NCBI RefSeq assembly: GCF_018362975.1
Contig: NZ_CP074371.1
Span: 4,030,001-4,094,000 of the forward strand
Direction of reading: 5' to 3'
DNA length: 64,000 nucleotides
From: Nocardia tengchongensis
Lineage (GTDB): Bacteria; Actinomycetota; Actinomycetes; Mycobacteriales; Mycobacteriaceae
Part shown: in pieces, positions 17,345 through 23,566 of the stretch
How the letters are laid out: each line of letters starts with the position of its first letter
How positions within the stretch are numbered: the stretch's first letter is position 1
The notes under the pieces: model-generated
Databases searched by the model: none
What the model was told of the DNA's origin: nothing
What the model saw: only the letters and a program-made list of their open reading frames with translations
Made by a program: the position numbers and the translations under genes

Positions 17345-17803
17345 ATGCAGCTCTCCCGGTTCACCGATCTCGGCTTGCGGTCGCTCATGCGGCTGGCGGT
17401 CAGTAGTGGGGCCGAGGAGCGTGTCACCGTCAAACTCATTGCGCGACAGGTGAACGCATCCGAGAACTACGTTGCCAAGGCCGTCTCCAAACTCGCCGAA
17501 CTCGGTTATGTCGAGTCCCAGCGCGGGCGCACAGGCGGAATCTTCCTGACCGATGCGGGAAGAAAAACCACTATCGGCACTATTGTCCGACAGCTCGAAT
17601 GTGATAACGAGGTCATCGATTGCGCTGGTGATAATCCATGCCCAATCGCGAGTGTCTGCCGTTTGCGGGGTGTTCTCGCCAAGGCGCAGAACGCCTTCTA
17701 TGTCGAGCTCGATCGGTACGTCATCGCCGATCTGGTGGATCAGCGCACCGTGGATCTGCTGCATATGCCGGTATTCCCGGCAGCCGCACTCATCGATACC
17801 TAG
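17345..17803 (+). CDS. nsrR: Rrf2-family nitric oxide-sensing repressor NsrR
   Basis: A 152-residue winged-helix repressor. It has the Rrf2 start MQLSRFTDLGLRSLMRLA, recognition helix ASENYVAKAVSKLAELGYV, and wing RGRTGGIFL. Three cysteines in C-X5-C-X5-C (CAGDNPCPIASVC, about 93-105) would hold the iron-sulfur cluster that reacts with NO. It lies 8 bases before hmp in the same direction, the classic pair in which NsrR represses flavohemoglobin until NO destroys its cluster. The mRNA seems leaderless. The coding sequence is less GC-rich than its neighbours. Confidence 0.9.
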   Translation: MQLSRFTDLGLRSLMRLAVSSGAEERVTVKLIARQVNASENYVAKAVSKLAELGYVESQRGRTGGIFLTDAGRKTTIGTIVRQLECDNEVIDCAGDNPCPIASVCRLRGVLAKAQNAFYVELDRYVIADLVDQRTVDLLHMPVFPAAALIDT

Positions 17804-17811
17804 GAGACCTC

Positions 17812-19059
17812 ATGAGGCTCGCGCCGGATTCCACACTGCACAACGCCGTCGACCTGGAGCCCGAGCATGCCGAAGTGATTCGTGCGACCCTGCCCCTGGT
17901 GGCCGCGCACATCGATCAGATCACCTCGCTGTTCTACACCAAGATGTTCGCCGCTCACCCAGAGCTGCTGCGCGACCGCTTCAATCGCGGCAATCAGCAC
18001 GACGGCGCGCAGCAGAAGGCCCTCGCCGCCTCCATCGCCACCTTCGCCACCCACCTCGTCGATCCGAGCCTGCCGCATCCGCGCGAACTGCTGGCCCGCA
18101 TCGGTCACAAGCACGCCTCGCTCGGTGTCACGGAGCCCGAATACCGTATCGTGCACGAGCATCTGTTCGCCGCCATTGTCGAGGTGCTCGGCGCGGATGT
18201 GGTGTCCCCGCAGATCGCAGCGGCCTGGGATCGCGTGTACTGGCTGATGGCCACGACCCTCATCGATTTCGAACGGGAACTCTACGACGCGGCCGGGGTC
18301 GAGCCCGGCGACGTGTTCCGCGAGACCCGTGTGGTGCGGCGCATCGACGACCCCTCGGGCGTGGCCACCTTTGTGGTCGAGTCCGCCGATCCGGCCCGCC
18401 GACTGCCGGGATTCGAGCCGGGACAGTACATCTCGGTCGGCGCGCGACTGCCCGACGGCGCCCGCCAGTTGCGCCAGTACAGCCTGGTCAACCGCGGCGG
18501 CGACGGCCGGCTCGCGTTCACCGTGCGCAAGGTGCTCGCCGAAAACGGCACACCCGCCGGTGAGGTCTCGAACTGGCTGCACGACACCATCAGCACGGGC
18601 GACGCCCTCGAGATCACGTTGCCCTTCGGCGATCTCACCCTCGACCGGGCCGCCACCACGCCGGTCGTGCTGATCTCCGCGGGCATCGGCATCACCCCGA
18701 TGGCCGGCATCTTGGAATACCTGGCCGCCGAAACCCCCACGCGCCGAACGGTCATCCTGCACGCGGACCGCTCCACCACCGCGCACCCGCTTCGCGAGAC
18801 CGTCGCCGACCTCGCCTCCCGCCTGGCCGATGTCTACTCGCGGGCCTGGTATCAGGCCGACGGTCATGGCTTGCTGGATCTGAGTCGGATCGAGCTCCCG
18901 GAGGACGCGGACTACTACCTGTGCGGTGGCACCGGCTTCCTGCAGCACGTCCGCGCCCAACTCATGTCCGCCGGAATCCCTTCGGACCGAGTCCATTTCG
19001 AGCTCTTCGCGCCGAATGACTGGCTGCTGGACGAGGATCCGCAGCCCGCGTTCGCCTGA
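17812..19059 (+). CDS. hmp: Flavohemoglobin, nitric oxide dioxygenase Hmp
   Basis: Oxidises nitric oxide to nitrate using O2 and NAD(P)H. The 415-residue protein has an N-terminal globin domain (1-150; distal FYTKMFAAHPEL, proximal heme His in IGHKHASLGV near residue 100). An FAD domain follows with the RQYSLVN motif (about 222-228), then an NAD domain with SAGIGITPM (about 288-296) and YYLCGGTGFL. ATG 17812 has AGGAG at 17802-17806. Co-transcribed with nsrR. Confidence 0.93.
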   Translation: MRLAPDSTLHNAVDLEPEHAEVIRATLPLVAAHIDQITSLFYTKMFAAHPELLRDRFNRGNQHDGAQQKALAASIATFATHLVDPSLPHPRELLARIGHKHASLGVTEPEYRIVHEHLFAAIVEVLGADVVSPQIAAAWDRVYWLMATTLIDFERELYDAAGVEPGDVFRETRVVRRIDDPSGVATFVVESADPARRLPGFEPGQYISVGARLPDGARQLRQYSLVNRGGDGRLAFTVRKVLAENGTPAGEVSNWLHDTISTGDALEITLPFGDLTLDRAATTPVVLISAGIGITPMAGILEYLAAETPTRRTVILHADRSTTAHPLRETVADLASRLADVYSRAWYQADGHGLLDLSRIELPEDADYYLCGGTGFLQHVRAQLMSAGIPSDRVHFELFAPNDWLLDEDPQPAFA

Positions 19060-19071
19060 CGCGCGAGCGGT

Positions 19072-19638
19072 CTACCCGCGGGCCGCGATGACCGCGAGCA
19101 CGCCGCTCAGCCACGGGGTGTAGCGACCGGGCTCACTCGCCACATCCTGTGCGAGGGTGTCCGGCCGCACCCAGGCGGTGTCGGCCACCTCGTCCGGATT
19201 CGGGTGCAGGACCTCGTCGTCCAGCCGGCCGATCACGACGTGGTCGTATTCGAACTCGACGCGGCCGGTGCCAGGGTCGGTGGCCTGATAGGTGAAGGCC
19301 CCCACCTCGGACAGCTCCGCGGAGACGCCGAGTTCCTCCTGCAGCCGCTTGGCCGCGGCCTCGACGACCGCCTGCCCGGGCTCGGGATGCCCGCAGCAGG
19401 TGTTGGTCCACAGCATCGGGAAGCGGGTCTTCACCGCGGCCCGTCGCTGCAGCAGCACCCGGCCGACGGCGTCGAACAGCAGCACCGAGAAGGCTCGGTG
19501 CAGCTGTCCGGGCGCGGTGTGCGCCGCCGCCACCGACAACGATCCGTGCGCGCGTCCCTGCTCGTCCACGAGCTCGACGAGCAGGGTCTCACGGTCGGCC
19601 ACCGGGGTGGCGTCGGATGCGTCGAGGGTGCCGGTCAC
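19072..19638 (-). CDS. idi: Isopentenyl-diphosphate delta-isomerase, type I
   Basis: Nudix-fold metalloenzyme interconverting IPP and DMAPP. The 188-residue protein holds the catalytic-cysteine motif NTCCGHPEPG (about 80-89), the RAFSVLLFD region and the acidic EFEYDHVVIG motif. It follows the GPP methyltransferase gene after only 9 bases, so it is the last gene of the 2-methylisoborneol operon. There it would raise DMAPP supply for making GPP. No GPP synthase lies nearby. The GTG start at 19638 overlaps a GGTGG-type ribosome site region. Confidence 0.92.
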   Translation of the reverse strand: MTGTLDASDATPVADRETLLVELVDEQGRAHGSLSVAAAHTAPGQLHRAFSVLLFDAVGRVLLQRRAAVKTRFPMLWTNTCCGHPEPGQAVVEAAAKRLQEELGVSAELSEVGAFTYQATDPGTGRVEFEYDHVVIGRLDDEVLHPNPDEVADTAWVRPDTLAQDVASEPGRYTPWLSGVLAVIAARG

Positions 19639-19647
19639 CTTCCCACC

Positions 19648-20505
19648 TTATCGGCGGTGATCATCAGGTACTGGAAGCTCCCCCTTGTACGAGGTCAGGA
19701 ACGGTTTCTCGACACCGGTCGCGAGCTCGGAGTGGGTGCGCAGCTCCCAGTACGGGATGGTGTCCGGGGTGAGGTCGGTGACCGCCACCGGGACCAGGTT
19801 GTTGGCGGCCAGGGCCTTGAAGTACTCGCTGCGCGGGTGGATGTTGCAGCCGTAGTGGGCGTCGATCCAGCTCACCGAGGCCGAGCGGGCGCCGAAGACA
19901 TCATTGGAGCAGCCGGTGATGCAGACGTAGCGGCCGCCGGGCTCGAGCAGCCGGGAGAATTCCGCGAACAGCTCGAACAGGTCCACGTACATGGTGGTCT
20001 CGTTGGTCCAGATACCGCGCTTGCAGCCGGTCTCGAACCCGGTGTCGAGCATATTCTTGAAATGGAACTGCACCTTGTCGGCGACGCCGCGTTCGCGGGC
20101 CTGGTCGTTGGCGAAGCCCACCTGGTACTCGGAGATGGTGACGCCGTCCATCCGGCAGCCGAAGCGCTGGTTGGCCATGAAACTGGTGCCGCCGCGCCCG
20201 GATCCGCCGTCCATCAGCGCGTCGCCGGGGCGGACGTCGCCGAGCTGGTCGAGCAGTAAGTCGGCCTGGGCGGTCTCGAGCCGGTGCAGTTCCTTGACCA
20301 GGCGTTCCTGCCGGGTCTCTTCGGGACCCTCGAGCACGGACAGATCGGGCTCGCCGATGCCGTAGTGATGGTGGTAGAGCCCGTCCACCTCGCCGAGTTT
20401 GGTGTTCACCCGGTCGTCGTTGGGGTTGTTGTTCCAATACGACGCGACCGATTTCTGATATTCGGTCTTCAGCACGGCGTCGGTCTGGGGGTGGAGCGCG
20501 GTCAT
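19648..20505 (-). CDS. Geranyl diphosphate 2-C-methyltransferase
   Basis: SAM-dependent enzyme that adds a methyl group at C2 of GPP, giving 2-methyl-GPP, the substrate of 2-MIB synthase. The 285-residue protein has the family's N-terminal YQKSVASYWNNNPNDDRVN and YHHHYGIGEPD. The SAM motif is ALMDGGSGRGGTSF (about 95-108), and TNETTMYVD is the conserved mid-domain segment. It lies between the terpene synthase gene and idi on the same strand. Equivalent to SCO7701 in Streptomyces coelicolor. Confidence 0.93.
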   Translation of the reverse strand: MTALHPQTDAVLKTEYQKSVASYWNNNPNDDRVNTKLGEVDGLYHHHYGIGEPDLSVLEGPEETRQERLVKELHRLETAQADLLLDQLGDVRPGDALMDGGSGRGGTSFMANQRFGCRMDGVTISEYQVGFANDQARERGVADKVQFHFKNMLDTGFETGCKRGIWTNETTMYVDLFELFAEFSRLLEPGGRYVCITGCSNDVFGARSASVSWIDAHYGCNIHPRSEYFKALAANNLVPVAVTDLTPDTIPYWELRTHSELATGVEKPFLTSYKGELPVPDDHRR

Positions 20506-20590
20506 GGCAGGTCATCCTCTCGAATGGGGTGATATGACGCTGGAAGTACTGCGCGCGAAAGAAGAGCTCTGTCCCGGAAAGCGGTGTCGG

Positions 20591-22144
20591 TCAGGGGTCG
20601 TCGTTGTAGCGGCGGCTGTCCGCGTGCCAGGCCCGGTTCCCGCCCATCCAGGCCCACAGACCGGTCAGGAAGCGGCGCAGTTCCGGGGAACCGGTGGCGG
20701 CGAGCGCGCCCGCCTCGGCCTCGAAGCGGTGCACCAGTTCGTCGTGAACCTCGGCGGTGCGCTGCACGGCCTCCCGGCGTGAGCAGTTCTCCTCGGCGGC
20801 CAGCACGGTCGGGAGGTTGAATTCCCGTCCGCCGGACAGGTCCTCGCGGGCCATCGAGTAGAGGTCGTTGACCATCTGGCTGGCCAGCGCGGCGGTGGTG
20901 ACCACCCGCCGCACCCGCGGATCGGCGTACTCCGCGGCCGGCAGCTCGTACCCGCCGACCGCGTCCAGCGGGGCCATGCAGGGCAGGAAGCTGTGCGGTT
21001 GCCGGTTCAGCAGGTACTCCCAGACCGGCGGCATTCGCCCGGCGGTCCGCCAGCCCGCCTCCGCGCCGAGCGCGATGAACCAGCCCGCGATCTCGGTGCG
21101 CAACCGGGCCACCTGGGCCGGGGTGGCGAACTTCGACAGATGCTCGAACGAGGTCCGGAAGGCCCGCAGGATCGGATCGTTCCGCATCGCATTCTCGACC
21201 TCGAGCTGATACCGCGGCGGCAGATGCACCGGATCCATGGCGGCGGCGGCCAATTCGAGGCGTGGCCCCAACTCGGCCTCCGCGCTGGACCTGGTGCCGT
21301 CCGGCGCGATATCGCTGGCGTCCTCCTCGCAGTAGTAGTCGTCCACCGACCACTCCGACACCGCGCATTTCGCGGCGGCCAGCAATCGGTCGGAGTCATC
21401 GCAGTCCGGATGGGCGAGCATGATCAGACGCCCGAAGTCGGCCTTGCGGAGATCGTCGAGCCGGCCCTCGTAGAGCCCGATCTCCTCGGCCCACGCGATG
21501 ATCCCGGTATTCACCGCCGCCGCGAGCGCGGGGTTGTCCCGCACCGGTGGCGGACAGTAGAGGGCCGGGATCACCGGCCGCTGTGCGGCGCGGGTCCGCC
21601 GGGTCGAGGCGGTGCCGATGCCGGTGGGGCCGCTCGCGATCGGCCCGCCGCTGCCCGGAAGGACTCCGGTCGGACCGGTGGCAGCCGGGCCGGACGGCAC
21701 GGGTGGAAGCGGTGGAATACGTTCCGCGGCACGGGTTTCCGCGGGCGGAGCGGGCACCCGCCCGGATCCCAGGGCGCGGGGGATCGGACCCCGCGAGTGG
21801 GCCGGGGAGGTGGGTGGGCGCGGCGTCGGCACCGCGCCGCCGGCAGGCGACGGCGGCCGCGATGCCTGTCCCGCGAGCTCCGTGATCACCTGGGGGGTGG
21901 GTAGGTTCACGCGGAGACTCGGGGCCCCGAGGCCGGAGGGGCCGAGCAGCCGTCGGGGGGAGAGCACCTCGGGTGCGCCGGGATCGGCGACGCCGGGGGA
22001 TCGATCACCAAGGGCCGCAGCGGCTTCGGCCGCCGCGAGCAGGGTCCGGGGTGCGGTGGTGTCGAGGTTGGTCAGCAGAGCGGCGACGGCCGCCGCCACC
22101 TCGTGGGTGGCAGGCGGGGCCGCGGCGCGGGAGAGCACCGACAT
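20591..22144 (-). CDS. 2-methylisoborneol synthase (terpene cyclase) with long disordered N-terminus
   Basis: Cyclises 2-methyl-GPP to 2-methylisoborneol. The 517-residue protein has two parts. Residues 1-190 or so are low-complexity, rich in Pro, Gly, Ala and Ser (repeated GPTG-type stretches). The rest is a class I terpene cyclase with the aspartate-rich DDYYCEE motif at about 268-274 and the NSE-type triad NDLYSMARE at about 426-434, where Arg replaces the more usual Lys. The long unstructured N-terminus is the part expected to bind the encapsulin shell. The gene starts 15 bases after the shell gene stops. Confidence 0.93.
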   Translation of the reverse strand: MSVLSRAAAPPATHEVAAAVAALLTNLDTTAPRTLLAAAEAAAALGDRSPGVADPGAPEVLSPRRLLGPSGLGAPSLRVNLPTPQVITELAGQASRPPSPAGGAVPTPRPPTSPAHSRGPIPRALGSGRVPAPPAETRAAERIPPLPPVPSGPAATGPTGVLPGSGGPIASGPTGIGTASTRRTRAAQRPVIPALYCPPPVRDNPALAAAVNTGIIAWAEEIGLYEGRLDDLRKADFGRLIMLAHPDCDDSDRLLAAAKCAVSEWSVDDYYCEEDASDIAPDGTRSSAEAELGPRLELAAAAMDPVHLPPRYQLEVENAMRNDPILRAFRTSFEHLSKFATPAQVARLRTEIAGWFIALGAEAGWRTAGRMPPVWEYLLNRQPHSFLPCMAPLDAVGGYELPAAEYADPRVRRVVTTAALASQMVNDLYSMAREDLSGGREFNLPTVLAAEENCSRREAVQRTAEVHDELVHRFEAEAGALAATGSPELRRFLTGLWAWMGGNRAWHADSRRYNDDP

Positions 22145-22159
22145 GGGTGGCCACCCCGC

Positions 22160-23566
22160 TCAGTCGGACTGACGGGCGACCAGCACATTGTCGAGAATGC
22201 CGAGCGCGTCGGGGACCAGGACGGCGGCCGAGTAGTAGCAGCTGACCAGGTAGGAGATGATCGACTGATCGTCGATGCCCTTGAACCGGACGTTGAGGCT
22301 GGGCTCGTACTCGTCCGGAATTCCGGTCTGGTGCAAGCCGATCACGCCCTGCTCCTTCTCGCCGGTGCGCATGGCGAGAATCGAGGTGGTTTGATTCGCG
22401 CTGACCGGGATCTTGCCGCACGGGAAGATCGGCACCCCGCGCCAGGCCGGCACCCGGTGGCCGTCCACCTCGACCGGGTCGGGATACAGTCCGCGCCTGG
22501 TGCATTCGCGGCCGAACGCGGCGATCGCCTTGGGGTGGGCCAGGAACAGCTTGGTGCTGCGCCGCATGGACAGCAGTTCGTCCATGTCGTCCGGGGCGGG
22601 TGCGCCGGACTCGCTGTAGATGCGCTGTTTCAGGTCGCAGTTGTTGAGCAGCCCGAAGTCCGGGTTGTTGACCAGGTCGTATTCGCGGCGCTCGTAGAGG
22701 GCCTCGATGGTCAGGCGCAACTGCTGCTCGATCTGATCCATCGGATCGTTGAACAGGTCGGCGACGCGGGTGTGCACGCGCAGCACCGACTGGCCCAGGC
22801 TGAGCTCGTATTCGCGCGGTTGCCCGTCGTAGTCGACGTAGGTGCCCTCGAGCATCGGCTCTCCGGAATGGCCGGAGGAGATGACGATCTCGGCCTCGCC
22901 GTACTTGTTCTGCGGCAGCGCCGGCGCCTGCGCGACGGCGGAAAGGTGTTCGGCCAGTGCCGGAATGTTCGCGGTCAGCTGTTCCACGGTGGAACGGGGC
23001 AGCACCAGCATGGTGGTGGGGGTGACCGTCTTGATCGTGACCGGCCAGATGGCGCCCGCGTCGGTGAGCGTCTCGTCGCCGAAGTAGTCGCCGCCACCGA
23101 GCATACCGAGCTTGGTGGTCTCGCCGTATTCGCCGGTGCCGATCTTGGAGAGTTTGCCGTGCACGATGAGCAGCACCTGGTCCATCGGGTTGCCGAATTC
23201 GGCGACCACGGTGCCGGCGGGCAGGTCCCGCTGTTCGAAGCGCCCGGCCACGGTGGCCAGCACCTCTTCGTCGCCGAAGCCGCGCAGCTGCGGCAGTTCG
23301 GTCAGTTCGAGCGGGATGACCCGGGCGTGCGGGCCGTTGATGATGTACTCCACCTCGCCGTTGCCGACCGTGTGGGTGAGGCGGCGGTTGACCCGGTAGA
23401 CACCGCCCTTGACCTGGGTCCACGGCAGCGAGCGGGTCAGCCAGCGGGAGCTGATGCCCTGCATTTGCGGTTCGGACTTGGTGGTGTGGGCCAGCTGGCT
23501 GGCGGCGGCGGTGCTGAGGGATTTGCGTTGGCCGTTTTGGAGCTCGACGGGCAATTCGATGGTCAT
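22160..23566 (-). CDS. Family 2B encapsulin shell protein with cyclic-nucleotide-binding domain
   Basis: Formerly annotated as a Crp-like cyclic-nucleotide-binding protein of 2-MIB operons; now recognised as the HK97-fold shell of a terpenoid nanocompartment. The N-terminal arm (about 1-80; [24 protein letters not shown]) and the C-terminal half (about 225-468; [22 protein letters not shown], then [16 protein letters not shown]) are shell-like. Between them, at about 85-215, is a cNMP-binding domain ([34 protein letters not shown]). There is no helix-turn-helix, so it is not a Crp regulator. The ATG at 23566 has a GAGG site; an earlier in-frame GTG at 23593 is less likely. First gene of the operon. 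Confidence 0.9.

Follow-up and report, generated by a model that had tools for sequence, protein, structure and literature searches.

The locus considered here raises the question of whether a gene for isopentenyl diphosphate (IPP) isomerase, idi, that stands at the end of an encapsulin gene cluster is a part of the compartment or a neighbor of it. The locus occupies positions 19,072–23,566 of a 64,000-nucleotide (nt) stretch of Nocardia tengchongensis (contig NZ_CP074371.1; this whole stretch is termed the window), which is part of an 8.0-Mb single-contig genome. Four genes are read on the minus strand in the order family 2B encapsulin shell, 2-methylisoborneol (2-MIB) synthase-like terpene cyclase, geranyl diphosphate (GPP) 2-C-methyltransferase and idi, with intergenic gaps of 15, 85 and 9 bases. 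The first three are referred to here as the cassette. An earlier sequence-only reading had proposed this arrangement, and coordinates and NCBIfam matches confirm it; all four products pass the curated NCBIfam cut-offs. The same reading regarded the presence of idi as unusual, suggested that idi couples the supply of dimethylallyl diphosphate (DMAPP) to the compartment, and asked whether the isomerase is free, shell-bound or simply co-expressed.

Comparisons with related genomes point to an explanation that is considered probable. The cassette lies between a fixed acyl-CoA synthetase gene and a resident idi; idi would have its own leaderless promoter and be a co-located supplier, and the shell and methyltransferase would form a chassis with an exchangeable synthase. 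The points that are new here are the resident status of idi, a predicted promoter overprinted on the coding end of the neighboring gene, and an apparent repeated exchange of the synthase.

The arrangement of idi and cassette is not due to chance. Among the best 80 of 294 related shell loci, taken from named genomes, the methyltransferase gene is seen in 65, and idi directly follows it in 61 of these (61/64 in Nocardia). Some of the 15 shell loci without a visible methyltransferase gene are cut by contig ends. A search of 150 Nocardia genomes, one genome per species, shows the methyltransferase (E-value up to 1e-60) in 98 and idi (E-value up to 1e-15) in 143, where up to 16 and 22 candidates per genome were scored, respectively. 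There are 108 methyltransferase matches in Nocardia. The cassette set consists of 97 main loci and the window (98 in total), plus three second copies; seven second copies were left out (G031, G041, G088, G099, G132, G145, G146), and that of G145 came along with locus L239. Two of the 98 cassette loci (L138, L178) are on contigs that stop short of the shell gene.

In 94 of the 98 cassette genomes idi follows the methyltransferase gene, and in 90 of these 94 loci the methyltransferase stop codon and the idi start codon overlap by 4 nt. Thus idi is physically joined to the cassette. The 9-base gap is peculiar to the window genome and was rejected as the typical spacing. In the window the last methyltransferase codons (19648–19720) are in a frame unlike that of 93 relatives, beside a run of G. 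This shifted frame may be real, or it may be a sequencing error.

In the class surveyed, the methyltransferase is found in 36 of 394 genomes. Among the loci examined outside of Nocardia, idi is within 1.5 kb of the methyltransferase gene in all eight loci of a second genus, g67, and in none of those from g52 (0/19) or g141 (0/1). According to the accessible text of PMC8346489, terpene-cyclase encapsulin operons show an enrichment of IPP isomerases. The linkage of idi was therefore rejected as a new observation, and its description as unusual does not hold. The enrichment, the g67 loci, the 4-nt overlap and the 94 Nocardia loci all agree with an alternative explanation that makes idi a genuine fourth member of the 2-MIB operon, transcribed from the shell promoter only, with DMAPP supply tied to the compartment. 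This alternative is nevertheless considered unlikely on account of the observations that follow.

The genomes that do not have the methyltransferase speak against it. There are 52 such Nocardia genomes, and 49 carry idi. In 49 of 49, idi lies in divergent orientation next to one and the same acyl-CoA synthetase gene (PRK07868 type), and thus stands alone at the same place. The two genes are neighbors where the cassette is absent, separated by a median of 98 bp (range 75–1113; 46 loci, measured from alignment ends), and the cassette sits between them where it is present. On this comparison idi is a resident gene of Nocardia. The set of cassette-less idi loci comprises 50, of which L186, L196 and L220 are second idi copies that were dropped from the resident counts, leaving 47. 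Resident loci L245 and L246 are outside the motif counts given below, and L211 was omitted from the distance statistic.

Several cassette-less loci carry scars. Nine retain a piece of the methyltransferase C-terminal tail before idi (at least 7 of 17 residues, with a background maximum of 6 in 20,000 windows), and L199 retains a fragment of the shell gene. Thus at least ten cassette-less loci look like losses. The reverse case, also contrary to a fourth-gene role, is found in four related genomes (L167, L169, L170, L172) where shell, synthase and methyltransferase are present and idi has been lost. A tree of the acyl-CoA synthetase and idi displays 15 changes of cassette presence, at least 8 of which are forced by well-supported branches (cassette-less group).

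A conserved hexamer before idi is the second line of evidence. In 91 of the 94 cassette loci the motif TANNNT precedes the idi start by exactly 6 nt (TAAGGT in 88, TAAAGT in 3). In methyltransferase-negative genomes it precedes the idi start in 46/50 loci, at 6 nt in 36 and at 7 nt in 10; the four loci without it are the three second idi copies elsewhere and L219, so that 46 of 47 resident loci have the motif at 6–7 nt. The cassette-less hexamers are TAAGGT (16), TAGGGT (11), TATGGT (9), TAGGCT (7), TACGCT (2) and TAAGCT (1). The background of TANNNT is 0.0011 per position; among ATG/GTG sites, 157 of 40,617 have the motif, real ones included.

At cassette loci the hexamer lies within the coding end of the methyltransferase gene. 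The usual sequence before the overlap is GAT AAG GTG/GTA GGN NGG TGA, which sets TAAGGT at its 6-nt distance, and the hexamer begins at the third position of an Asp codon. This codon is GAT in all 93 relatives with idi; elsewhere in the methyltransferase GAT constitutes 413 of 1964 Asp codons. The Asp column is by far the most A/T-rich of 69 conserved two-fold codon columns (0.96, the next being 0.74). Only four sequences depart from GAT here, precisely those of the four idi-less genomes, and these encode the same Asp-Lys-Val as GAC AAG GTC; GAC is also present in the four second methyltransferase copies examined. Both the exact position of TANNNT and the synonymous constraint, which is absent where idi is absent, are contrary to transcription of idi from the shell promoter only. 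The conservation at the base level is concluded to serve the resident idi, most likely as a leaderless promoter of its own.

An improbable alternative is that the hexamer is not a promoter, and that AAGGTGGG is a weak ribosome-binding site of idi kept for coupled translation. There is a G-rich stretch just before the start codon in cassette loci, as this alternative would have it. However, the inner three bases vary in cassette-less loci (e.g. TACGCT, TAGGCT, TATGGT) while TA...T is kept, and thus a –10 element fits better than a ribosome site. In addition, the constrained base is the T of GAT, which is outside any Shine-Dalgarno match. In g67, where idi has an ordinary leader and a purine-rich site, there is no TANNNT at the start (8/8 loci).

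The proposed idi promoter resembles those of Mycobacterium tuberculosis leaderless genes. In the available text of PMC3898074, 73% of primary start sites in M. tuberculosis are reported to have TANNNT 7–12 bp before them, in many cases preceded by CGN, and leaderless genes make up 26% of those with a primary start site. Nocardia idi displays the same features: a TANNNT, as a predicted –10 element, that ends 6 nt before the start, a CGN before it (CGA directly before the hexamer in the window) and a GTG/ATG start. A conserved TANNNT that ends 6 nt before the start is the sequence sign of a leaderless actinobacterial promoter, and idi has it. Unlike the M. tuberculosis elements, the Nocardia element is deduced from conservation and lies inside the coding end of the upstream gene.

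The locus does not look like an operon with one exclusive promoter, as idi occurs without the cassette and has a promoter-like element of its own. No conserved TANNNT was found at a fixed place before the shell gene (best position 9/94). The suggested coupling of idi to the compartment stands as far as the physical link and the overlap are concerned, and it is weakened as to dedication, both by the cassette-less idi in 49/49 genomes and by the predicted promoter. A separate idi promoter had been named beforehand as the result that would speak against coupling. Such a promoter is predicted from the sequence, yet the stop/start overlap is found in nearly all cassette loci.

Several observations weigh against a resident idi that is served by its own promoter. 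The 4-nt overlap argues for translation of idi from the cassette transcript as well, so that idi is not simply independent. The recurrence of the idi link in g67 favors a functional tie between idi and the cassette. L219, a resident cassette-less locus, lacks the motif. The second methyltransferase copies in L182 and L239 have GAC and are followed by another idi without the element; idi can therefore do without it. In three of the 94 cassette loci (L150, L154, L159) the hexamer is kept while the idi start has moved 43–150 nt downstream, and a leaderless start is not applicable there. The genomes behind the GAT and GAC counts are related to one another, and these counts do not represent independent events; the genomes with GAC, four in number, form a single clade. 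Finally, the tree does not give the direction of change, i.e. insertion of the cassette before a resident idi versus a four-gene ancestor with many losses.

As to the location of the isomerase, the consensus GPTGLGT has been proposed as the targeting sequence of the cargo cyclases (PMC8346489, in its available text). A pattern search for the loading motif (PxGLG type) was negative in all 144 idi frames and all 99 methyltransferase frames, and the motif is present in 87 of 96 shell–methyltransferase intervals, the place of the synthase. Because no idi frame has the loading motif, the isomerase is predicted to be free of the shell, i.e. a neighbor and not a packaged cargo. That idi is itself a cargo or a shell-surface protein of the compartment is very improbable: genetic linkage is all that speaks for it, and set against this are the lack of the motif and the retention of idi at its place in 49 genomes without the cassette.

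The synthase gene is less constant than its neighbors. Sixteen of the 98 cassette genomes have lost the catalytic part of the in-operon synthase or retain it only in truncated form, whereas the reading frames of shell, methyltransferase and idi remain open. An unlinked second synthase is found in all 16, with 37%–44% identity to that of the window over the catalytic part. A second synthase is present in only two of the other 82 cassette genomes (G013, 41% identity; G104, 35%) and in none of the 52 methyltransferase-less genomes (E-value up to 1e-40). In 22 genomes all synthase candidates were scored, and among these the four intact controls, G005 and G140 gave no additional match exceeding 34% identity. 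On the tree the synthase losses amount to 9 changes in one analysis and 10 in another, where well-supported branches force 9 of the 10. Independent pairs show an association of the second synthase with synthase loss by 8 to 0 (P = 0.008); the motif-less G104 synthase was scored once as absent and once as present, with about the same result.

The second synthases have the properties of cargo. A PxGLG motif near the N-terminus is present in 17 of 18 (the exception is that of G104), both metal motifs are present in 18/18, and the four that were tested all pass the cargo model NF041167 (410–441 bits, cut-off 400). No methyltransferase gene and no intact shell gene were found around the 18 second synthases, within about 8 kb on each side where the contig allows. 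In G143 (L282 7259–7999) broken encapsulin remnants adjoin the stand-alone second synthase, as though a shell gene had once belonged to it. A second methyltransferase was not found in 15 of the 16 synthase-lost genomes, nor another full-length family 2B shell in 9 of the 16.

The ratio of nonsynonymous to synonymous substitution (dN/dS) was compared in hand-picked clades, four synthase-lost and four intact. For the methyltransferase the ratio is 0.065–0.097 in the lost clades and 0.044–0.142 in the intact clades. For the shell it is 0.032–0.229 and 0.084–0.187, respectively, where the value above the intact range is from a lost clade that is a single pair. Two genomes with an intact synthase are interspersed in the L144/L150/L159 clade, and part of its divergence predates the loss. 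By these ratios the shell and methyltransferase remain under purifying selection after synthase loss, which suggests that cargo is exchanged in trans. Replacement of the synthase in trans is the simplest reading of this correlation.

It might be supposed that the loss of the synthase in the 16 genomes reflects faulty assembly or simple decay, and that the second synthase is unrelated to the shell. Many assemblies are indeed fragmented, and synthase frame breaks in L088, L095 and L099 are possible sequencing errors (these were counted as kept). Yet three of the 16 are single-contig genomes (G031, G121, G142). Runs of N are absent in all 18 intervals checked, which include 12 of the 16 genomes, and N gaps were rejected as the cause of the missing synthase for these intervals. 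The losses are at nine or ten places on the tree, each with a second synthase, and in all 16 both shell and methyltransferase retain open frames, most dN/dS values falling in the intact-clade range. An artefact or plain decay thus has a low probability.

Some points count against cargo exchange. It is a correlation, and the second synthases share 37%–44% identity with that of the window. G013 holds both synthases, seven of the 16 synthase-lost genomes have another full-length family 2B shell, and no more than 14 candidates per genome were scored in the second-synthase search. A separate observation is the opposite pattern to synthase loss: in L180 (G005) and L181 (G140) the N-terminal part of the methyltransferase is lost and the catalytic part of the synthase is open; the shell gene of G005 is only partial.

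With these points taken into account, the probable explanation with a resident idi can be stated as a mechanism. The hexamer, embedded in the last methyltransferase codons, would be the –10 element of an idi promoter, and transcription would start at the idi start codon. Through the overlap idi would also be read from the cassette transcript, giving more DMAPP when the cassette is on; GPP needs IPP and DMAPP one to one. The cyclase alone would be loaded, through its GPxGLG-type N-terminal motifs, with the methyltransferase and isomerase acting in the cytosol, and the product would be 2-MIB, a musty odorant. Shell and methyltransferase would be the chassis, and the synthase would be exchangeable. 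In nine or ten lineages the in-operon synthase was lost, in every case from genomes with an unlinked, motif-bearing synthase, and this synthase would be loaded in trans into the resident shell. An extended form of this proposal is advanced tentatively, as a possibility: a standing shell and methyltransferase chassis had its synthase swapped nine or ten times, the unlinked synthase packed in trans uses the resident 2-methyl-GPP and may change the product, and idi is shielded from these changes by its own promoter.

The features of the window are listed in Table 1. The closest named relatives of the window shell are in Nocardia (93% identity to N. aurantiaca). Profile matches show the two components that define family 2B, an SrpI-like HK97 shell domain and an inserted cyclic nucleotide monophosphate (cNMP)-binding domain. 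The cyclase has the marks of an encapsulin cargo, i.e. the family match, both metal motifs and a GPxGLG-type N-terminal motif; its N-terminal part has GPSGLGA and GPTGIGT. Thus matches to NF041163 and NF041167 support the earlier assignment of a family 2B shell with a 2-MIB synthase-like cargo. The nearest solved chains to the cyclase are 4zq8 (isoprenoid synthase, 215 bits) and 3v1v (2-MIB synthase, 179 bits). DDYYCEED and NDLYSMARE are its two metal motifs, the first rich in aspartate and the second of the NSE type. The methyltransferase (NF041943) and the type I IPP isomerase (NF002995, TIGR02150) exceed equivalog cut-offs. The isomerase has NTCCGHP at residue 79 and EFEYDH at residue 128, stretches that are marks of type I IPP isomerases. 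The predicted idi –10 element is unchanged in spite of the shifted methyltransferase frame.

Table 1. Location of the predicted genes and sequence elements of the locus in the window (aa, amino acids).
Feature	Position	Strand	Basis
Family 2B encapsulin shell gene, 468 aa	22160..23566	-	NF041163 722 bits (cut-off 400); PF19307 (SrpI-like) 441 bits; PF00027
cNMP-binding domain within shell protein, residues 113–199, family 2B mark	22970..23230	-	PF00027 47 bits (cut-off 27.5)
2-MIB synthase-like terpene cyclase, predicted cargo, 517 aa	20591..22144	-	NF041167 (family 2 encapsulin cargo terpene cyclase) 549 bits (cut-off 400)
GPSGLGAPSLRVNLP, loading-motif-like stretch, N-terminal part of cyclase	21899..21943	-	Likeness to GPTGLGT consensus (PMC8346489, available text)
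GPTGIGT, second loading-motif-like stretch of cyclase	21611..21631	-	Likeness to GPTGLGT consensus (PMC8346489, available text)
DDYYCEED, aspartate-rich stretch of cyclase	21320..21343	-	Sequence motif
NDLYSMARE, NSE-type stretch of cyclase	20843..20869	-	Sequence motif
Geranyl diphosphate 2-C-methyltransferase gene, 285 aa	19648..20505	-	NF041943 463 bits (cut-off 400)
Predicted –10 element TAAGGT of idi promoter, CGA before it, overlaps methyltransferase 3′ end	19645..19650	-	Conservation and synonymous constraint
Type I isopentenyl-diphosphate delta-isomerase gene idi, 188 aa, GTG start, predicted leaderless	19072..19638	-	NF002995 203 bits (cut-off 127); TIGR02150 125 bits
Divergent acyl-CoA synthetase gene (PRK07868), 1005 aa	23857..26874	+	NF005898 1571 bits
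Flavohaemoprotein-like gene, convergent with idi, start uncertain; context, outside the system	17638..19059	+	Globin and NAD-binding Pfam domains; NF009805 307 bits, below cut-off 432

Additional copies of these genes were observed in other genomes. Second idi copies in L186 and L196 (genomes G021 and G062, both methyltransferase-less) are beside two family 2B shell genes (51%–56% identity). The second idi of G098 (L220) is one open frame. Another second idi (L004 5698–6206; G000:C1:2971694-2972208) is split over two frames, and the open reading frame before it (L004 4572–5654) appears by eye, not by search, to encode an aromatic prenyltransferase. Another genus of the family (G179, L299 9634–15044) has an idi in divergent orientation to a pair of shell genes and a terpene cyclase-like gene. 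L182, L183 and L239 are second methyltransferase copies with no match to a family 2B shell or 2-MIB synthase in the stretch examined; in L182 and L239 the idi start overlaps the stop codon of the second methyltransferase, without a TANNNT element. Second shell loci (L058, L060, L062, L064, also L037) encode shells with 75%–81% identity to that of the window. Another terpene cyclase follows (25%–27% identity), with no match to methyltransferase or idi in the stretch examined, and these loci are read as the same shell type with other cargo.

The locus can be compared with other systems. Loci of genus g52 (e.g. L316, L321, L323) have the shell end, synthase and methyltransferase in the same order, but differ in that idi is not within 1.5 kb of the methyltransferase in any of the 19 loci, one each from 19 of the 24 g52 genomes with the gene. 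Genus g52 is provisionally taken to be Streptomyces. In the Streptomyces 2-MIB encapsulin, packing of the synthase has reportedly been demonstrated by experiment. The family 2B terpene-cyclase operons of Andreas and Giessen (2021; PMC8346489) are the same in having a cNMP-domain shell, a 2-MIB synthase-like cyclase with a GPTGLGT-type motif, a C-methyltransferase and an enrichment of IPP isomerases. They differ in that the accessible text makes no mention of an idi promoter, a resident idi outside the operon, or loss or replacement of the synthase. The literature searched, including the accessible text of PMC8346489, PMC10509563, PMC10520479 and PMC12407261 and leaving out most subscription papers and supplements, gave no account of a promoter for idi or of an exchanged synthase in Nocardia.

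Taken as a neighbor with its own switch rather than a part of the compartment, idi provides a testable answer to whether the isomerase is free, bound or co-expressed. The predicted promoter is overprinted on coding sequence and comes with a natural control, as the same amino acids are encoded with another codon once idi is gone. The second synthases point to a natural exchange of encapsulin cargo without change of the shell gene, which bears on the evolution of cargo loading. Such cargo exchange could also help in applying these shells to the production of methylated terpenes.

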